This document shows, one piece after another, positions 39,978 to 44,025 of a DNA stretch of 64,000 bases. The position numbers were made by a program, and so were the translations under genes. The notes beneath the pieces are model-generated. The model saw only the letters and a program-made list of their open reading frames with translations, made no database searches and was not told where the DNA came from. The DNA comes from Actinomycetota bacterium (GTDB lineage Bacteria; Actinomycetota; Acidimicrobiia; Acidimicrobiales; Ilumatobacteraceae): NCBI GenBank assembly GCA_016870865.1, contig VGAC01000009.1:1-64000 (forward strand). The letters are read 5' to 3'. Position 1 is the first letter of the stretch, and the number at the start of each line of letters is the position of its first letter.

Positions 39978-41897
39978 TCAGGCGTCGTTGATGGCGCTGC
40001 GGAGGAAATCGATCGCTTCGGACTTGTCGCTCGTGCGTGCCATCGGCGGCAGGGCATTGATGATCGTCCAGCGGTAGCCCTTTTTCGCCAGGCGGGGATC
40101 GAGAACCGCAACGACGCCTCGGTCGGTGCGCGAACGAACGAGACGTCCGGCCGCCTGGGCGAGGGATGTGATCGCGCGCGGCAGGTCGATCTCGATGAAT
40201 CCCCGTGGACCGTGGAGTTCGCGCCGGGCGGCGAGCAGTGGATTGTTGCGGTGGGGAAAGGGAATTCGGTCGATGATGACAAGGCAGAGCGAGCGACCCG
40301 GGATGTCGACCCCCTCGAAGAAGCCCGCGGTTGCGAACAGGCACGCGGATTCGTCGAGCGTGAACTCGCGCAACAAAGTTGCACGCTGGTTCTCGTCCTG
40401 GGCGAGGATCGGGAAGGGGAGACGGGACCGCAGGGCTTCAACCGCGGCGTTCATCGCCCGCCGGCTGGTGAAGAGTGCAAGCGTGCGGCCGCCTGCAGCC
40501 GCGATGAGGTCGGCCATTTCGGAGTGCACGAGATCGTCGCGGTCGGCGTTGGGCTCGGGAAGATGCGTGGCGCAATAGAGCATCGCCTGTTCGGCGAACT
40601 CGAACGGGCTCCCGACATCGATCATTTCTGCCGAATCACCGAGGCCGACACGGTGGGGCATCGACAACGGGATCGTCGCGCTGGTCAGCACGACCGCGTG
40701 TCCGGGCCACGCATGTTCGGCCAGCGCCGGTCCGACGTCGAGCGGCGCGAGAATTAGTTCCGCCCGCTCGCTGGACCCGGTGACGAACGGGACGTATGTG
40801 GAGTCGGCACGCAGGGTGGCATCGATGTCATCGGCGAGACGCGTGGCGAGTTGCTGGGCGCGGAACATCTTTTGTCGCACCGAGTCCATTGCGGAGTCGA
40901 CGTTGCGCAGCGCTTCGAGACACTCACCGGCCGTGAGCCGCAACGCCGTGAGGCAATCGACGATGTCGCGGGGGATCGGTAGCGCCAGACGCTGCTCGAC
41001 GTTGGGTGCGAGAACGTCGCCCAGGGCCTTGGCCTCGTCGTGGAGCCGGCGTTGAAGGCGATCATCTGCGATGACACGCCTCAGCGCCGCCGCGAGGGTC
41101 GTGGCACGGGACGCCGCGAGGCTCACACCGATGGTGGATGTGAGCGTGTCCTCGAGTTGATGGGCTTCGTCGAAGATGACCACGTCGTGTTCGGGAAGAA
41201 TCGCGCCGCCCGCGGCCACGTGCATGCCGTACAGGTGCGTGTTGACGACCAGGACATCGGCGGCCGCGGCACGGGCTCGTGCACGTTCGGCAAAGCAATT
41301 TCCGCCCGACTCACAACGCGCCGCACCCGGACACTCGTCGCTGCCGACGCTGACCGTCTGCCAGGCGCGGAGCGAGGGCTGCCAGTCGAGTTCGGCCACG
41401 TCGCCCGACTCGGTGCCGAGGGCCCAACGGGCAAGTTGGTCGACTTCTCGTTGGTGGCTGGCTCCGAGATCCTCCAATTCGAGACGTGCGTTGTTGGTGA
41501 CCTCGGATACGCGCTGCATGCACACGTAGTTGCTGCGGCCCTTGAGAATCGACCAGGTGAAGGGTTGCGGAAGGGTCGCCTCGAGGAGGGGCAGGTCGCT
41601 GTGTGCGAGTTGGTCCTGGAGAGTCTTGGTGGCCGTGGAGACGACCGTGCGTTTGCCCGAGAGGATCGCCGGGACGAGATAGGCGATGGTCTTGCCGGTT
41701 CCCGTGCCCGCCTGCACGATGAGGCGGCCGTCAGTGTTGATCGCCTGCGTCACGGCCAGAGCCATGTCGACCTGGCCGGGGCGGTCCTCGGGCCGGGGGA
41801 GACCCGCTGTCACGTGGTGAAGTGCCTGTGCGACCTCGTCGCGCATCACATGCCGACCACGGGGTGCGTCGTCGGAGGAATCGTCGGTGCCGGTCAT
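39978..41897 (-). CDS. dinG: ATP-dependent DNA helicase DinG/XPD-type
   Basis: 639-aa superfamily 2 iron-sulfur helicase. Walker A is AGTGTGKT, Walker B is D-E-A-H, and motif VI is QAAGRLVRSRTDRG. Four cysteines between motifs Ia and II (YVC, ECP, RCE, NCF) should bind a 4Fe-4S cluster. DinG-type helicases unwind 5' to 3' and help resolve R-loops and stalled forks. It follows uppS by 16 bases and is probably co-transcribed with it. Confidence 0.94.
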   Translation of the reverse strand: MTGTDDSSDDAPRGRHVMRDEVAQALHHVTAGLPRPEDRPGQVDMALAVTQAINTDGRLIVQAGTGTGKTIAYLVPAILSGKRTVVSTATKTLQDQLAHSDLPLLEATLPQPFTWSILKGRSNYVCMQRVSEVTNNARLELEDLGASHQREVDQLARWALGTESGDVAELDWQPSLRAWQTVSVGSDECPGAARCESGGNCFAERARARAAAADVLVVNTHLYGMHVAAGGAILPEHDVVIFDEAHQLEDTLTSTIGVSLAASRATTLAAALRRVIADDRLQRRLHDEAKALGDVLAPNVEQRLALPIPRDIVDCLTALRLTAGECLEALRNVDSAMDSVRQKMFRAQQLATRLADDIDATLRADSTYVPFVTGSSERAELILAPLDVGPALAEHAWPGHAVVLTSATIPLSMPHRVGLGDSAEMIDVGSPFEFAEQAMLYCATHLPEPNADRDDLVHSEMADLIAAAGGRTLALFTSRRAMNAAVEALRSRLPFPILAQDENQRATLLREFTLDESACLFATAGFFEGVDIPGRSLCLVIIDRIPFPHRNNPLLAARRELHGPRGFIEIDLPRAITSLAQAAGRLVRSRTDRGVVAVLDPRLAKKGYRWTIINALPPMARTSDKSEAIDFLRSAINDA

Positions 41898-41913: not shown

Positions 41914-42582
41914 TCAACCGAGAACCGCAAGGGCGCGGTCGAACTCTTCGGCCGACATGTCGGGCCAGGTGCGCTCGGTGAAGTGGACCTTTGCACCGTT
42001 GATTTGCCAGAGCAGGAAGTTCGAGATGCGGGACTCGCCCGAGGTGCGGATGAGCAGGTCGACATCGGGCAGCGACGCGTCGTAGAGGTTCGCCGCGAGG
42101 TCGTTGGGTTGTACCCCGTTTGCGGCGTCAGCGGCCGCGAGTTGGGCGGCGCGGGCAAGTTCGGCGCGCGATCCGTAGTCGAAGGCCACCGTGAAGACCA
42201 TTCCCGTGTTCTGGGTCGTGTCGTCGACGGCGCGTTTTATTGCGCGCTGAACGTACGACGGGGTTCGTGACCCCGGTTCGTCGAATCGGCGACCGATCCA
42301 GTTGACCCGCACATTGTTGGCGTTCAACTCGTCGAGACGACCGAAGAGCTTCTTGTGCATGGCGAGGATGTGGCGTACCTCGGCCCGCGGCCGAATCCAA
42401 TTCTCGGTGCTGAAGCCGAAAACGGTCAGCCAACCGATGTCGCGGTCGCCTGCCGCACGCGTGACGATGGCAAGCGCCTCTTCTCCCGCGGTGTGACCCG
42501 CCGTACGGGGCAAGCCGCGACGGCGGGCCCAACGCCCGTTGCCATCCATGATGCATGCGACATGCAACTTGCGCTCGGCCAT
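41914..42582 (-). CDS. uppS: Cis-prenyltransferase catalytic subunit, UppS-like, lacking C-terminal R-x-G
   Basis: 222-aa cis-prenyltransferase that should extend a short isoprenyl diphosphate to undecaprenyl-length products for cell-wall synthesis. The catalytic loop M-D-G-N-G-R-W-A with Asp13, F-G-F-S-T-E-N-W, and R179-T-S-G-E-S-R185-I-S-N-F-L-L-W-Q are intact. Two features are odd. Lys198 stands where E. coli UppS has Glu213 (both are 19 residues after the first Arg of this motif). The chain stops right after W-P-D-M-S-A-E-E-F-D-R-A-L-A-V-L-G, missing the final R-R-F-G-G. No frameshifted remnant follows the stop. The divergent neighbour supplies exactly these features. Confidence 0.93.
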   Translation of the reverse strand: MAERKLHVACIMDGNGRWARRRGLPRTAGHTAGEEALAIVTRAAGDRDIGWLTVFGFSTENWIRPRAEVRHILAMHKKLFGRLDELNANNVRVNWIGRRFDEPGSRTPSYVQRAIKRAVDDTTQNTGMVFTVAFDYGSRAELARAAQLAAADAANGVQPNDLAANLYDASLPDVDLLIRTSGESRISNFLLWQINGAKVHFTERTWPDMSAEEFDRALAVLG

Positions 42583-42588
42583 GCACCA

Positions 42589-42594
42589 ACACTA
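42589..42594 (-). promoter_or_regulatory. -10 box TAGTGT for uppS
   Basis: Minus-strand TAGTGT ends six bases before ATG 42582. Confidence 0.6.
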
Positions 42595-42658
42595 CCGATG
42601 GGGCGTGCGGCGGGCCGTTCAGCGGCTCGACCATGTCGATACATGACACAATGATGTC

Positions 42659-43309
42659 GTGATCAGTCGGTTCAAATCGCGCGTCAAGGAACGCGTGAAG
42701 GCGCGCTTGCGAAGGGCTCTCGGTACTCCGGTGGCCAGCGATGAACCGCTCGCGCATGTCGTGGTCGCGGGTGGCACGCTCGCCGACTGGGCGGGTTTTG
42801 GTCAGGGTGCGTGGAACCGGCGTATCGGTGATCTGATCGATGCGCTCGAACGAGAAGGGGTGCGTTGGCTCACTCTCGTTCCCGTTTCGGCGGGCTCCGC
42901 ACCGCTCGACGACGGGGAGCGGTTGCGCCTCGAGTCGATGATCGACAAAGCGTTGCGACATCAGCGCAGTCGGGTCGAAGTGATCGTGCGGCCCGAAGCC
43001 GACGGCCGGGCGCGCTTTGCTCTCGTCGTGGAGAGACTTCTCTCGGATGACGCATCGCGGGGGGTACATTCGACGGCCTCCGAGCAGGCACTTGCGCGGG
43101 CGGTGCTTGCTCCCGCCGATGCCGAACCCGATCTCGTCGTTGTTCTCGGCCCGCCCGACACGTTGCCGACATCGCTGGTATGGGAACTCGCCTACAGCGA
43201 GATCGTGTTCCTCGACATCCCGTGGTCCGACATCAGTACCGAGCACCTGCAGGTGGCCGTCGACGACTTTCGTCGACGCAACCGCCGCTTCGGCGGGATC
43301 GACGCGTGA
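42659..43309 (+). CDS. Degenerate cis-prenyltransferase paralogue, NgBR-like candidate subunit
   Basis: 216-aa protein. It aligns without gaps to UppS at both key regions. HVVVAGGTLADWA (33-45) lies over the catalytic loop but has Gly39 in place of the catalytic Asp. DLVVVLGPPDTLPTSLVWE lies over the RTSGESR substrate loop but has lost both Arg. By contrast A-Y-S-Glu181 keeps the Glu missing from the neighbouring UppS, and the C-terminus ends R-R-F-G-G, the R-x-G motif that UppS lacks. It is predicted non-catalytic on its own and likely to pair with UppS. A basic N-terminal helix (about 1-20) may touch membrane. CACAAT lies six bases before GTG 42659. The stop overlaps the recO start (GTGA). 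Confidence 0.85.
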   Translation: MISRFKSRVKERVKARLRRALGTPVASDEPLAHVVVAGGTLADWAGFGQGAWNRRIGDLIDALEREGVRWLTLVPVSAGSAPLDDGERLRLESMIDKALRHQRSRVEVIVRPEADGRARFALVVERLLSDDASRGVHSTASEQALARAVLAPADAEPDLVVVLGPPDTLPTSLVWELAYSEIVFLDIPWSDISTEHLQVAVDDFRRRNRRFGGIDA

Positions 43310-44025
43310 CCAACTACCGCGACGAGGCCGTCGTGCTGCGGACGTACCGGTTGGGTGAGTCCGATCGCATCGTCGTCATGATGACAGAAGCCAACGGCAA
43401 GGTGCGCGCGGTCGCCAAGGGTGTGCGCAAGACGCGCTCAAGGCTCGGTTCGCGGCTCGAGCCCCTCAGCCATGTCTCGGTTCTGCTGCACAGGGGGCGC
43501 GAACTCGACATAGTGACGCAGGTCGAACCCCTCGACACCGCCTCGGCCCTGCGTGCAAACCTCGACAAGATGACCCAGGGTCTCGCGATGCTCGAAGCAG
43601 TCGACCAAATGACGATCGATCGCGAGCCCGTTCCCCACGTCTATCGGATGCTCGTGGGTGCTCTCGGTGCGCTCGCACAAGGGGGCTCGTCACTCGTGGT
43701 CGGGGCTTTTTATCTCAAGCTTCTCGCTGCGGAGGGCTTCGAGCCGGAGTTGGCTCGCTGCACCTCGTGCGGTTCGGGCGAGGAACTCGTCGCCTTCGAT
43801 GTGGTGAACGGGGGCTTGCAGTGTCGCTCGTGCCGCACCGGACCCGCGATCTCCAGCGGTGCGGTCGCATTGATGAGGCGCATCCTCGGGGGGCAACTGG
43901 CAGCCGCACTCGCCGAGCCGGAGAGTGCGATGACCCATGAGGTGACCCGCATCGCAACAGTCGCGATCGAAAGACAGTGCGACCGAAGGCTGAAATCCGT
44001 GGGGATGTTCGAGCGTCACGACTAA
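43306..44025 (+). CDS. recO: DNA repair protein RecO
   Basis: 239-aa recombination mediator that helps load RecA in the RecFOR pathway. The N-terminal OB fold starts Y-R-D-E-A-V-V-L-R-T and contains K-G-V-R-K-T-R-S-R-L-G. A C4 zinc-finger-like site is formed by C-T-S-C and C-R-S-C. The GTG start is coupled to the cis-prenyltransferase paralogue by GTGA. The TAA stop lies within TAACCT, a possible -10 for glyS. Confidence 0.96.
   Translation: MTNYRDEAVVLRTYRLGESDRIVVMMTEANGKVRAVAKGVRKTRSRLGSRLEPLSHVSVLLHRGRELDIVTQVEPLDTASALRANLDKMTQGLAMLEAVDQMTIDREPVPHVYRMLVGALGALAQGGSSLVVGAFYLKLLAAEGFEPELARCTSCGSGEELVAFDVVNGGLQCRSCRTGPAISSGAVALMRRILGGQLAAALAEPESAMTHEVTRIATVAIERQCDRRLKSVGMFERHD

Follow-up and report, generated by a model that had tools for sequence, protein, structure and literature searches.

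In bacteria, UppS, an essential target for antibacterials, is described as a homodimer. In such an ordinary homodimer, the C-terminal RxG tail of each subunit crosses the interface into the active site of the other. An account of Mycobacterium tuberculosis DPPS places RxG Arg292, contributed by the counter-subunit, in bonds with a Mg-bound water, the catalytic Asp and the diphosphates (PMC6450523). Heteromeric cis-prenyltransferases have already been described from eukaryotes and from the archaeon Methanosarcina. In the human enzyme, the RxG tail of NgBR is described as crossing the interface into the active site of DHDDS (PMC7573591). Methanosarcina mazei is credited with a prokaryotic two-gene enzyme, MM_0618/MM_1083, for a glycosyl carrier of C45-C50 (PMC8131916), and the cis-prenyltransferase of M. 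acetivorans has been named heteromeric (PMC6921004). According to a 2020 review, the enzyme is homodimeric in bacteria and plants, and heteromers are typically found in fungi, animals and plants (PMC7839719). Here we describe a gene pair in the window, i.e. the whole stretch of 64,000 nucleotides that was analysed, from a member of the Ilumatobacteraceae (Actinomycetota, Acidimicrobiia, Acidimicrobiales). The two divergent genes encode a truncated UppS-like protein, hereafter the catalytic subunit, and a degenerate UppS paralogue, hereafter the partner. Our literature search found no bacterial heteromeric cis-prenyltransferase among the papers listed; subscription papers and preprints were largely outside its coverage.

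We propose, with a probability of about 0.86, that the two proteins are the subunits, one catalytic and one non-catalytic, of an obligate heteromeric cis-prenyltransferase, which would make the polyprenyl-diphosphate carrier of the cell wall (about C50-C55). The catalytic subunit would contain one complete active site and no tail. The partner would have no active site and would supply the RxG tail and a Tyr-x-Glu pair in trans, giving one composite active site per heterodimer. From the sequences we infer the physical complex, the action of RxG and YxE in trans, the dependence of activity on the partner, and the product and its length.

The catalytic subunit matches the Pfam profile PF01255 with 212.7 bits (cut-off 27) over profile positions 1-209 of 219, and the partner matches it with 40.8 bits over positions 129-219. 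The profile end is missing from the catalytic subunit, and the partner is recognisable at the profile end only. On re-reading the window, the coordinates and lengths of both open reading frames (222 and 216 amino acids) proved correct as given in a preliminary description of this DNA, and so did the residues it listed. The UppS-like protein has intact MDGNGRWA and RTSGESR (residues 179-185) motifs, carries Lys198 at the place of Escherichia coli Glu213, and terminates 14 residues past its WPD motif, so that neither an RxG nor an RRFGG tail is reached. The paralogue has Gly39 for the catalytic Asp and Val162 for the substrate-binding Arg194, and it retains Trp175, Tyr179, Glu181 and RRFGG (residues 209-213). 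The genome of the window (1.95 Mb, 42 contigs, 96.3% complete) has just two PF01255 matches, which are this pair; a second full-length UppS, which the same description had named as evidence that would speak against a heteromer, was sought and not found in it. Also present in the genome are genes for two transferases of the MraY/WecA type and one phosphatase of the BacA/UppP type. Since these types are present, a carrier for the cell wall is the expected product.

To study the division of motifs across relatives, sequences of the catalytic type were aligned with E. coli IspU and 43 full-length enzymes, using E. coli numbering. The 43 enzymes comprise 39 relatives from the order and class and four exceptions from the family itself, and were picked for spread rather than at random; six of them form a divergent clade with His at N28. 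Motifs were counted on distinct sequences, since loci from two collections overlap; totals of 116, 119, 121, 124 and 125 refer to loci or rows from which copies were not removed. Left out were three rows in which a contig end cuts the catalytic gene (L051, L058, L129) and L002, a second view of the window that is still within the 125 loci. The partner of L052 is cut at its tail.

All 103 distinct, complete catalytic subunits keep D26, N28, R30, R39, H43, S71, N74, R77, R194, E198, R200 and S202. Tyr211 and RxG occur in none of them (0/103 each), and Glu213 in five. Among the full-length comparison enzymes, Y211, E213 and the RxG glycine are each present in 43 of 43, with Arg in the aligned column in 41. 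Every distinct partner has Gly at the place of Asp26 and retains W175, E176, Tyr179 and Glu181 (107/107 each), and RRFGG is present in all 106 complete tails. The place of Arg194 in the partner is taken by V, I, L or A in 124 of 124 rows. This partition of motifs between the two subunits is not due to chance. Tyr211 is a further residue lost from the catalytic subunits that had not been listed before. The loss of Glu213, which had been noted for the window protein, holds there but is not fully universal, as five of the 103 sequences retain Glu.

The partner evolves fast. Over the same 116 loci, its mean pairwise identity is 0.44, versus 0.68 for the catalytic subunit. Within the partner, the C-terminal 62 columns reach an identity of 0.63, versus 0.35 in the remainder. 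The slower evolution of the C-terminus implies that selection preserves the part that faces the other subunit in homodimers.

The truncation might be only apparent, i.e. a product of read-through, frameshifting or sequencing error, and a few profile matches did extend past the stop codon (e.g. in G059, G076 and G088). We regard the probability of this explanation as practically negligible. An RRFGG-like tail within 25 amino acids downstream of the stop was found in frame at only 1 of 121 loci and in the other two frames at none (0/121), on which grounds read-through or frameshifting into an RxG tail was rejected; moreover, RxG is missing from all 103 distinct complete sequences. Over the 121 loci, the catalytic gene ends in TGA at 82, in TAA at 26 and in TAG at 11, and two loci are cut at an end.

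PF01255 and a profile of the partner were searched against 150 family genomes, among them that of the window. The truncated type was called by where the match ends on the profile, and sequences were read just for the fetched loci. The list of PF01255 matches in the family is complete down to an E-value of 8.7e-14, far below any full-length match. Truncated UppS was found in 139 of the 150 genomes and the partner was also present in 136 of those, so that both genes occur in 136/150 genomes and in 24 of 27 genera. This count includes one genome with an in-frame stop in the partner (G100) and one in which a contig end cuts the partner (G131). The catalytic gene was found alone in three genomes (G121, G145, G147) and the partner alone in two (G029, G035), in each case at a contig edge. 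A truncated UppS without the paralogue, which had been named beforehand as a finding that would count against the heteromer, was sought and none was demonstrated: 136 of 139 are paired, and the other three lie at a contig edge. Full-length UppS without the pair occurs in four family genomes (G011, G023, G057, G110). Because the list is complete to the E-value given above, it follows that no family genome has both a full-length UppS and the pair (0/150). With both genes in 136 of 150 genomes and the five single ones at contig edges, the two subunits show obligate co-occurrence in the family.

The two genes are divergent at 119 of 119 loci that contain both. They are not adjacent in two genomes, namely on two contigs in G015 and about 9 kb apart in G101, and the retention of the pair there shows that the association is more than linkage. 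At two loci (L107, L114), about 2 kb lies between the two genes, with the stops 3.5 kb apart. The wide spacing at these loci and in G101 implies that the pairing does not require a common promoter region between divergent genes.

These data, together with the sole PF01255 pair in the window's genome, the exclusion of full-length UppS in 4/4 cases and a division of residues like that of DHDDS/NgBR, lend support at the sequence level to the obligate heteromer that the preliminary description had put forward. Several points weigh against it. Five of the 150 genomes (G004, G042, G045, G083, G144; 77-81% complete) gave no PF01255 match at all. Most genomes are drafts of tens to hundreds of contigs, and most of the named records are metagenome bins. 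The partner of G100 (locus L228, about 1890-2430) has an in-frame stop just before a run of N in the assembly; its RRRRFGG tail is intact after that run. Glu213 is still present in the five catalytic subunits mentioned above. Furthermore, DHDDS alone is described as active, with a kcat about 400-fold below that of the heteromer (PMC7573591), and archaeal MM_0014 is reported to lack RxG and yet to be active as a homodimer (PMC8131916).

The example of MM_0014, which functions without RxG (PMC8131916), agrees with a different explanation, in which truncated UppS is a working RxG-less homodimer and the paralogue a helpful regulator or chaperone that acts outside the active site. A decayed paralogue beside an intact UppS in another actinobacterial genus, described below, would also fit a regulator. 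We nevertheless consider this explanation unlikely. The best-conserved part of the partner consists of the very residues that the catalytic subunit has lost (Y179 and E181 in 107/107, RRFGG in 106/106), whereas a regulator would have no need of RxG. Moreover, the tail is lost from all 103 catalytic subunits, and the pair and full-length UppS are mutually exclusive in all four genomes with the full-length enzyme.

Some actinobacteria have short-chain members of the cis-prenyltransferase family. The heteromer could likewise make another product, with the cell-wall carrier coming from an unrecognised route, and product length is not readable from sequence. This strikes us as exceedingly improbable, however, as the window's genome has no other PF01255 protein, the family search down to E 8.7e-14 gave full-length matches in the four exceptions only, and the likely users and recyclers of the carrier (MraY/WecA and BacA types) are present.

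The split was also sought outside the family, in samples of the order, class and phylum that overlap one another. Full-length matches were found in 70 of 71 genomes of the order sample and in 67 of 70 of the class sample outside the family, and in 76 of 77 of the phylum sample; no match was found in one, three and one genomes, respectively. The class sample contained two extra C-terminal fragments outside the family, one in a frame of 48 amino acids (G283) and one at a contig start (G272). When the partner profile was run on 395 genomes of the class, 28 of the 29 listed family genomes scored at least 167 bits (G023 was the exception), and no other genome scored above 105.7 bits. Those of these lower-scoring matches that were inspected were C-terminal matches to the genome's own full-length UppS. 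Short UppS frames in another family (f88) were considered as a further truncation and rejected, since their matches reach the profile end. Hence, in the samples searched, the split is confined to one family of Acidimicrobiales, and the class Acidimicrobiia, over which it had been expected to extend, is too wide a scope.

The Ilumatobacteraceae live in water and have cultured species. Among the 80 named loci retained out of 167 with a partner match, 17 are titled Ilumatobacteraceae or Ilumatobacter. Several bins titled Acidobacteria, Bifidobacterium breve or Ferrithrix thermotolerans (L055, L068, L070, L091, L100, L107, L114) carry a partner of the Ilumatobacteraceae type, and their labels look wrong.

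The features of the window are listed in Table 1.

Table 1. Positions of the two subunit genes, their diagnostic residues and the adjoining genes in the window.
Feature	Position	Strand	Evidence or remark
Catalytic subunit, truncated UppS-like cis-prenyltransferase, 222 amino acids	41914..42582	-	Open reading frame, PF01255 match, AlphaFold2 model
MDGNGRWA (residues 12-19) with catalytic Asp13 (E. coli Asp26), intact	42526..42549	-	
RTSGE with diphosphate-binding Arg179 (E. coli Arg194), intact	42034..42048	-	
Lost YxE pair: Gly196-Ala-Lys198 replaces Tyr211-x-Glu213	41989..41997	-	
Stop codon of the catalytic subunit; frame ends before an RxG tail	41914..41916	-	
Candidate non-catalytic partner, degenerate UppS paralogue, 216 amino acids, GTG start	42659..43309	+	Ancestral uppS slot
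Partner Gly39 at the catalytic Asp26 position	42773..42775	+	
Partner V162-P170, lost RTSGExRxS diphosphate-binding segment	43142..43168	+	
Partner WELAYSE (175-181), Tyr179 and Glu181 kept	43181..43201	+	
Partner R210-F211-G212, kept C-terminal RxG motif	43286..43294	+	
Intergenic region of 76 bp between the divergent genes	42583..42658	.	
recO, context gene, not part of the enzyme	43306..44025	+	4-base overlap with the partner stop codon (GTGA)
dinG-like helicase, context gene, not part of the enzyme	39978..41897	-	Start position is the analysts' choice

The surrounding genes, which we take to be dinG, recO and glyS, were compared between the family and its relatives. In members of the order outside the family, recO stands beside uppS on the same strand in 19 of 22 fetched loci; in stretches of about 4 kb, dinG is visible on the other strand at 10 loci and glyS in line at 8. 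These counts give the order dinG (-), uppS (+), recO (+), glyS (+). In the family, the order is dinG (-), catalytic subunit (-), partner (+), recO (+), glyS (+). At 124 of 125 loci, recO lies on the partner's strand; the remaining locus, L052, is truncated by a contig end. Since recO adjoins both the canonical uppS and the partner, the partner holds the ancestral uppS slot. In G011, one of the four exceptions, a full-length uppS occupies this slot and there is no second gene. Another of them, G110, is 72% complete, and the search there found no recO.

The place of the partner beside recO on the same strand at 124 of 125 loci, with overlapping ends in the window, could also mean that the functions of the two proteins are unrelated, i.e. 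that the partner goes with recO, and that truncated UppS is self-sufficient or backed by an unknown enzyme. This seems very unlikely to us. Canonical uppS occupies the same recO-adjacent slot in the order relatives, and the linkage of partner and recO is thus inherited. Moreover, the co-occurrence of the two genes persists where they are not adjacent. In the genus g23 (G023, G057 and G042; loci L217, L218 and L219), dinG adjoins recO and both subunit genes are gone, whereas recO stays. G023 and G057 have a full-length UppS of another clade elsewhere in the genome; in G042, which is 81% complete, no full-length UppS was found.

In phylogenetic trees, the catalytic subunits form one clade (27 rows) and the partners another (13 rows), each with a Shimodaira-Hasegawa-like approximate likelihood ratio test (SH-aLRT) support of 100. 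The partner clade sits on a very long branch whose placement among actinobacterial UppS is weak; its tree contains no eukaryotic row. The nearest neighbour of the catalytic clade is also weakly placed. The position of the partner suggests that it is what became of the resident uppS, which decayed where it stood, and that the catalytic subunit goes back to a second copy that arose once in the family's ancestry, by duplication or by acquisition. The location of the partner in a bacterial uppS slot suggests that the split was independent of the eukaryotic one, and the bacterial heteromer is best read as having arisen separately.

A possible second case was found in the family f98, where a decayed UppS paralogue occurs in 3 of 23 genomes searched (G628, G648, G656), all of one genus. 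In it, MDGNG is replaced by VAERSG and the RTSGE segment by YAGDRPR, and WEMAYAE and SRRRGG are retained. Each of the three genomes also holds an intact full-length UppS with YAE and SRRRGG. The decayed paralogues were seen at L238 (1099-1905), L241 (1022-1840) and L243 (1170-1976). The f98 paralogue may represent an early step towards such a split, or it may be a regulator.

Compared with homodimeric UppS (E. coli IspU, M. tuberculosis Rv2361c), the pair shares the fold, the catalytic residues, PF01255 and the gene neighbourhood seen in relatives. The difference is that homodimeric UppS has its active site and trans-acting tail in one gene, whereas here they are distributed over two. AlphaFold2 models agree with a shared fold. 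The model of the catalytic subunit was built from an alignment of 27 rows, with a predicted local distance difference test (pLDDT) of 86.9 and a predicted template modelling score (pTM) of 0.85. It matches residues 10-237 of E. coli UppS with a Z score of 26.5 and a root-mean-square deviation (rmsd) of 2.5 over 217 aligned residues, and its aligned part is over before the E. coli RxG tail at 242-244. The model of the partner (31 rows, pLDDT 88.0, pTM 0.81) has a UppS fold as well, with E. coli UppS as the best match (Z 14.6, rmsd 3.4, 179 aligned). A structural search with both models returned no DHDDS or NUS1 chains among the best 50 matches listed, a result that excludes nothing. Residues 3-20 of the partner (window positions 42665-42718) form a basic helix in the model, with a pLDDT of about 70, which might bind the membrane. 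This helix was seen in one alignment row from the same genus and was not evident in other genera.

One of the closest described parallels is DHDDS/NgBR, with its counterparts Rer2/Nus1 in yeast and CPT/LEW1 in plants, in which a catalytic subunit without RxG is likewise joined to a dead partner of UppS fold that carries RxG. Where E. coli has WQIAYAELYF, human DHDDS has WQTSHSCLVF, with Cys at the place of Glu213. NgBR reads WHIRLTEIV and terminates in RLGK, and so keeps both the Glu (Glu262 by count) and RxG. Hence, the equivalent of Glu213 has been lost from the catalytic subunit and kept in the partner in the same way as RxG. The eukaryotic parallel drawn in the preliminary description was thus borne out for RxG, and it extends to Glu. 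Because Glu and RxG moved together in two splits, Glu213 would also act across the dimer interface. The two systems differ in that the bacterial partner has no evident membrane domain (no membrane predictor was run) and keeps Tyr at the place of residue 211, where NgBR has Leu. The bacterial catalytic subunit also lacks the C-terminal helix-turn-helix described as making the human tetramer (PMC7573591). The Methanosarcina enzyme MM_0618/MM_1083 resembles the present pair as a prokaryotic two-gene enzyme, but it is archaeal.

The two-subunit enzymes HexA/HexB and HepS/HepT have a fold that differs from that of cis-prenyltransferases. Like the present pair, they are bacterial polyprenyl diphosphate synthases built from two subunits, and the catalytic motifs are reported to lie on HexB (PMC7839719). 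They differ in that the double bonds they form are trans and in that they come from another protein family.

It seems to us an even chance that bacteria evolved a heteromeric UppS on their own and stepwise, dividing the labour as eukaryotes do, such that a paralogue first decayed while keeping its trans-acting C-terminus (the state now seen in G628, G648 and G656), the catalytic copy later dropped its tail and made the pair obligate, as in the Ilumatobacteraceae, and Glu213 acts across the interface. If the heteromer is real, the Ilumatobacteraceae would represent a separate origin of the architecture that underlies human dolichol synthesis. Their two small proteins would be suited to asking why cis-prenyltransferases turn heteromeric, and which roles RxG and the Tyr/Glu pair play across the interface. 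Moreover, because full-length enzymes and the pair are mutually exclusive among close relatives, the transition could be studied in naturally contrasting states.

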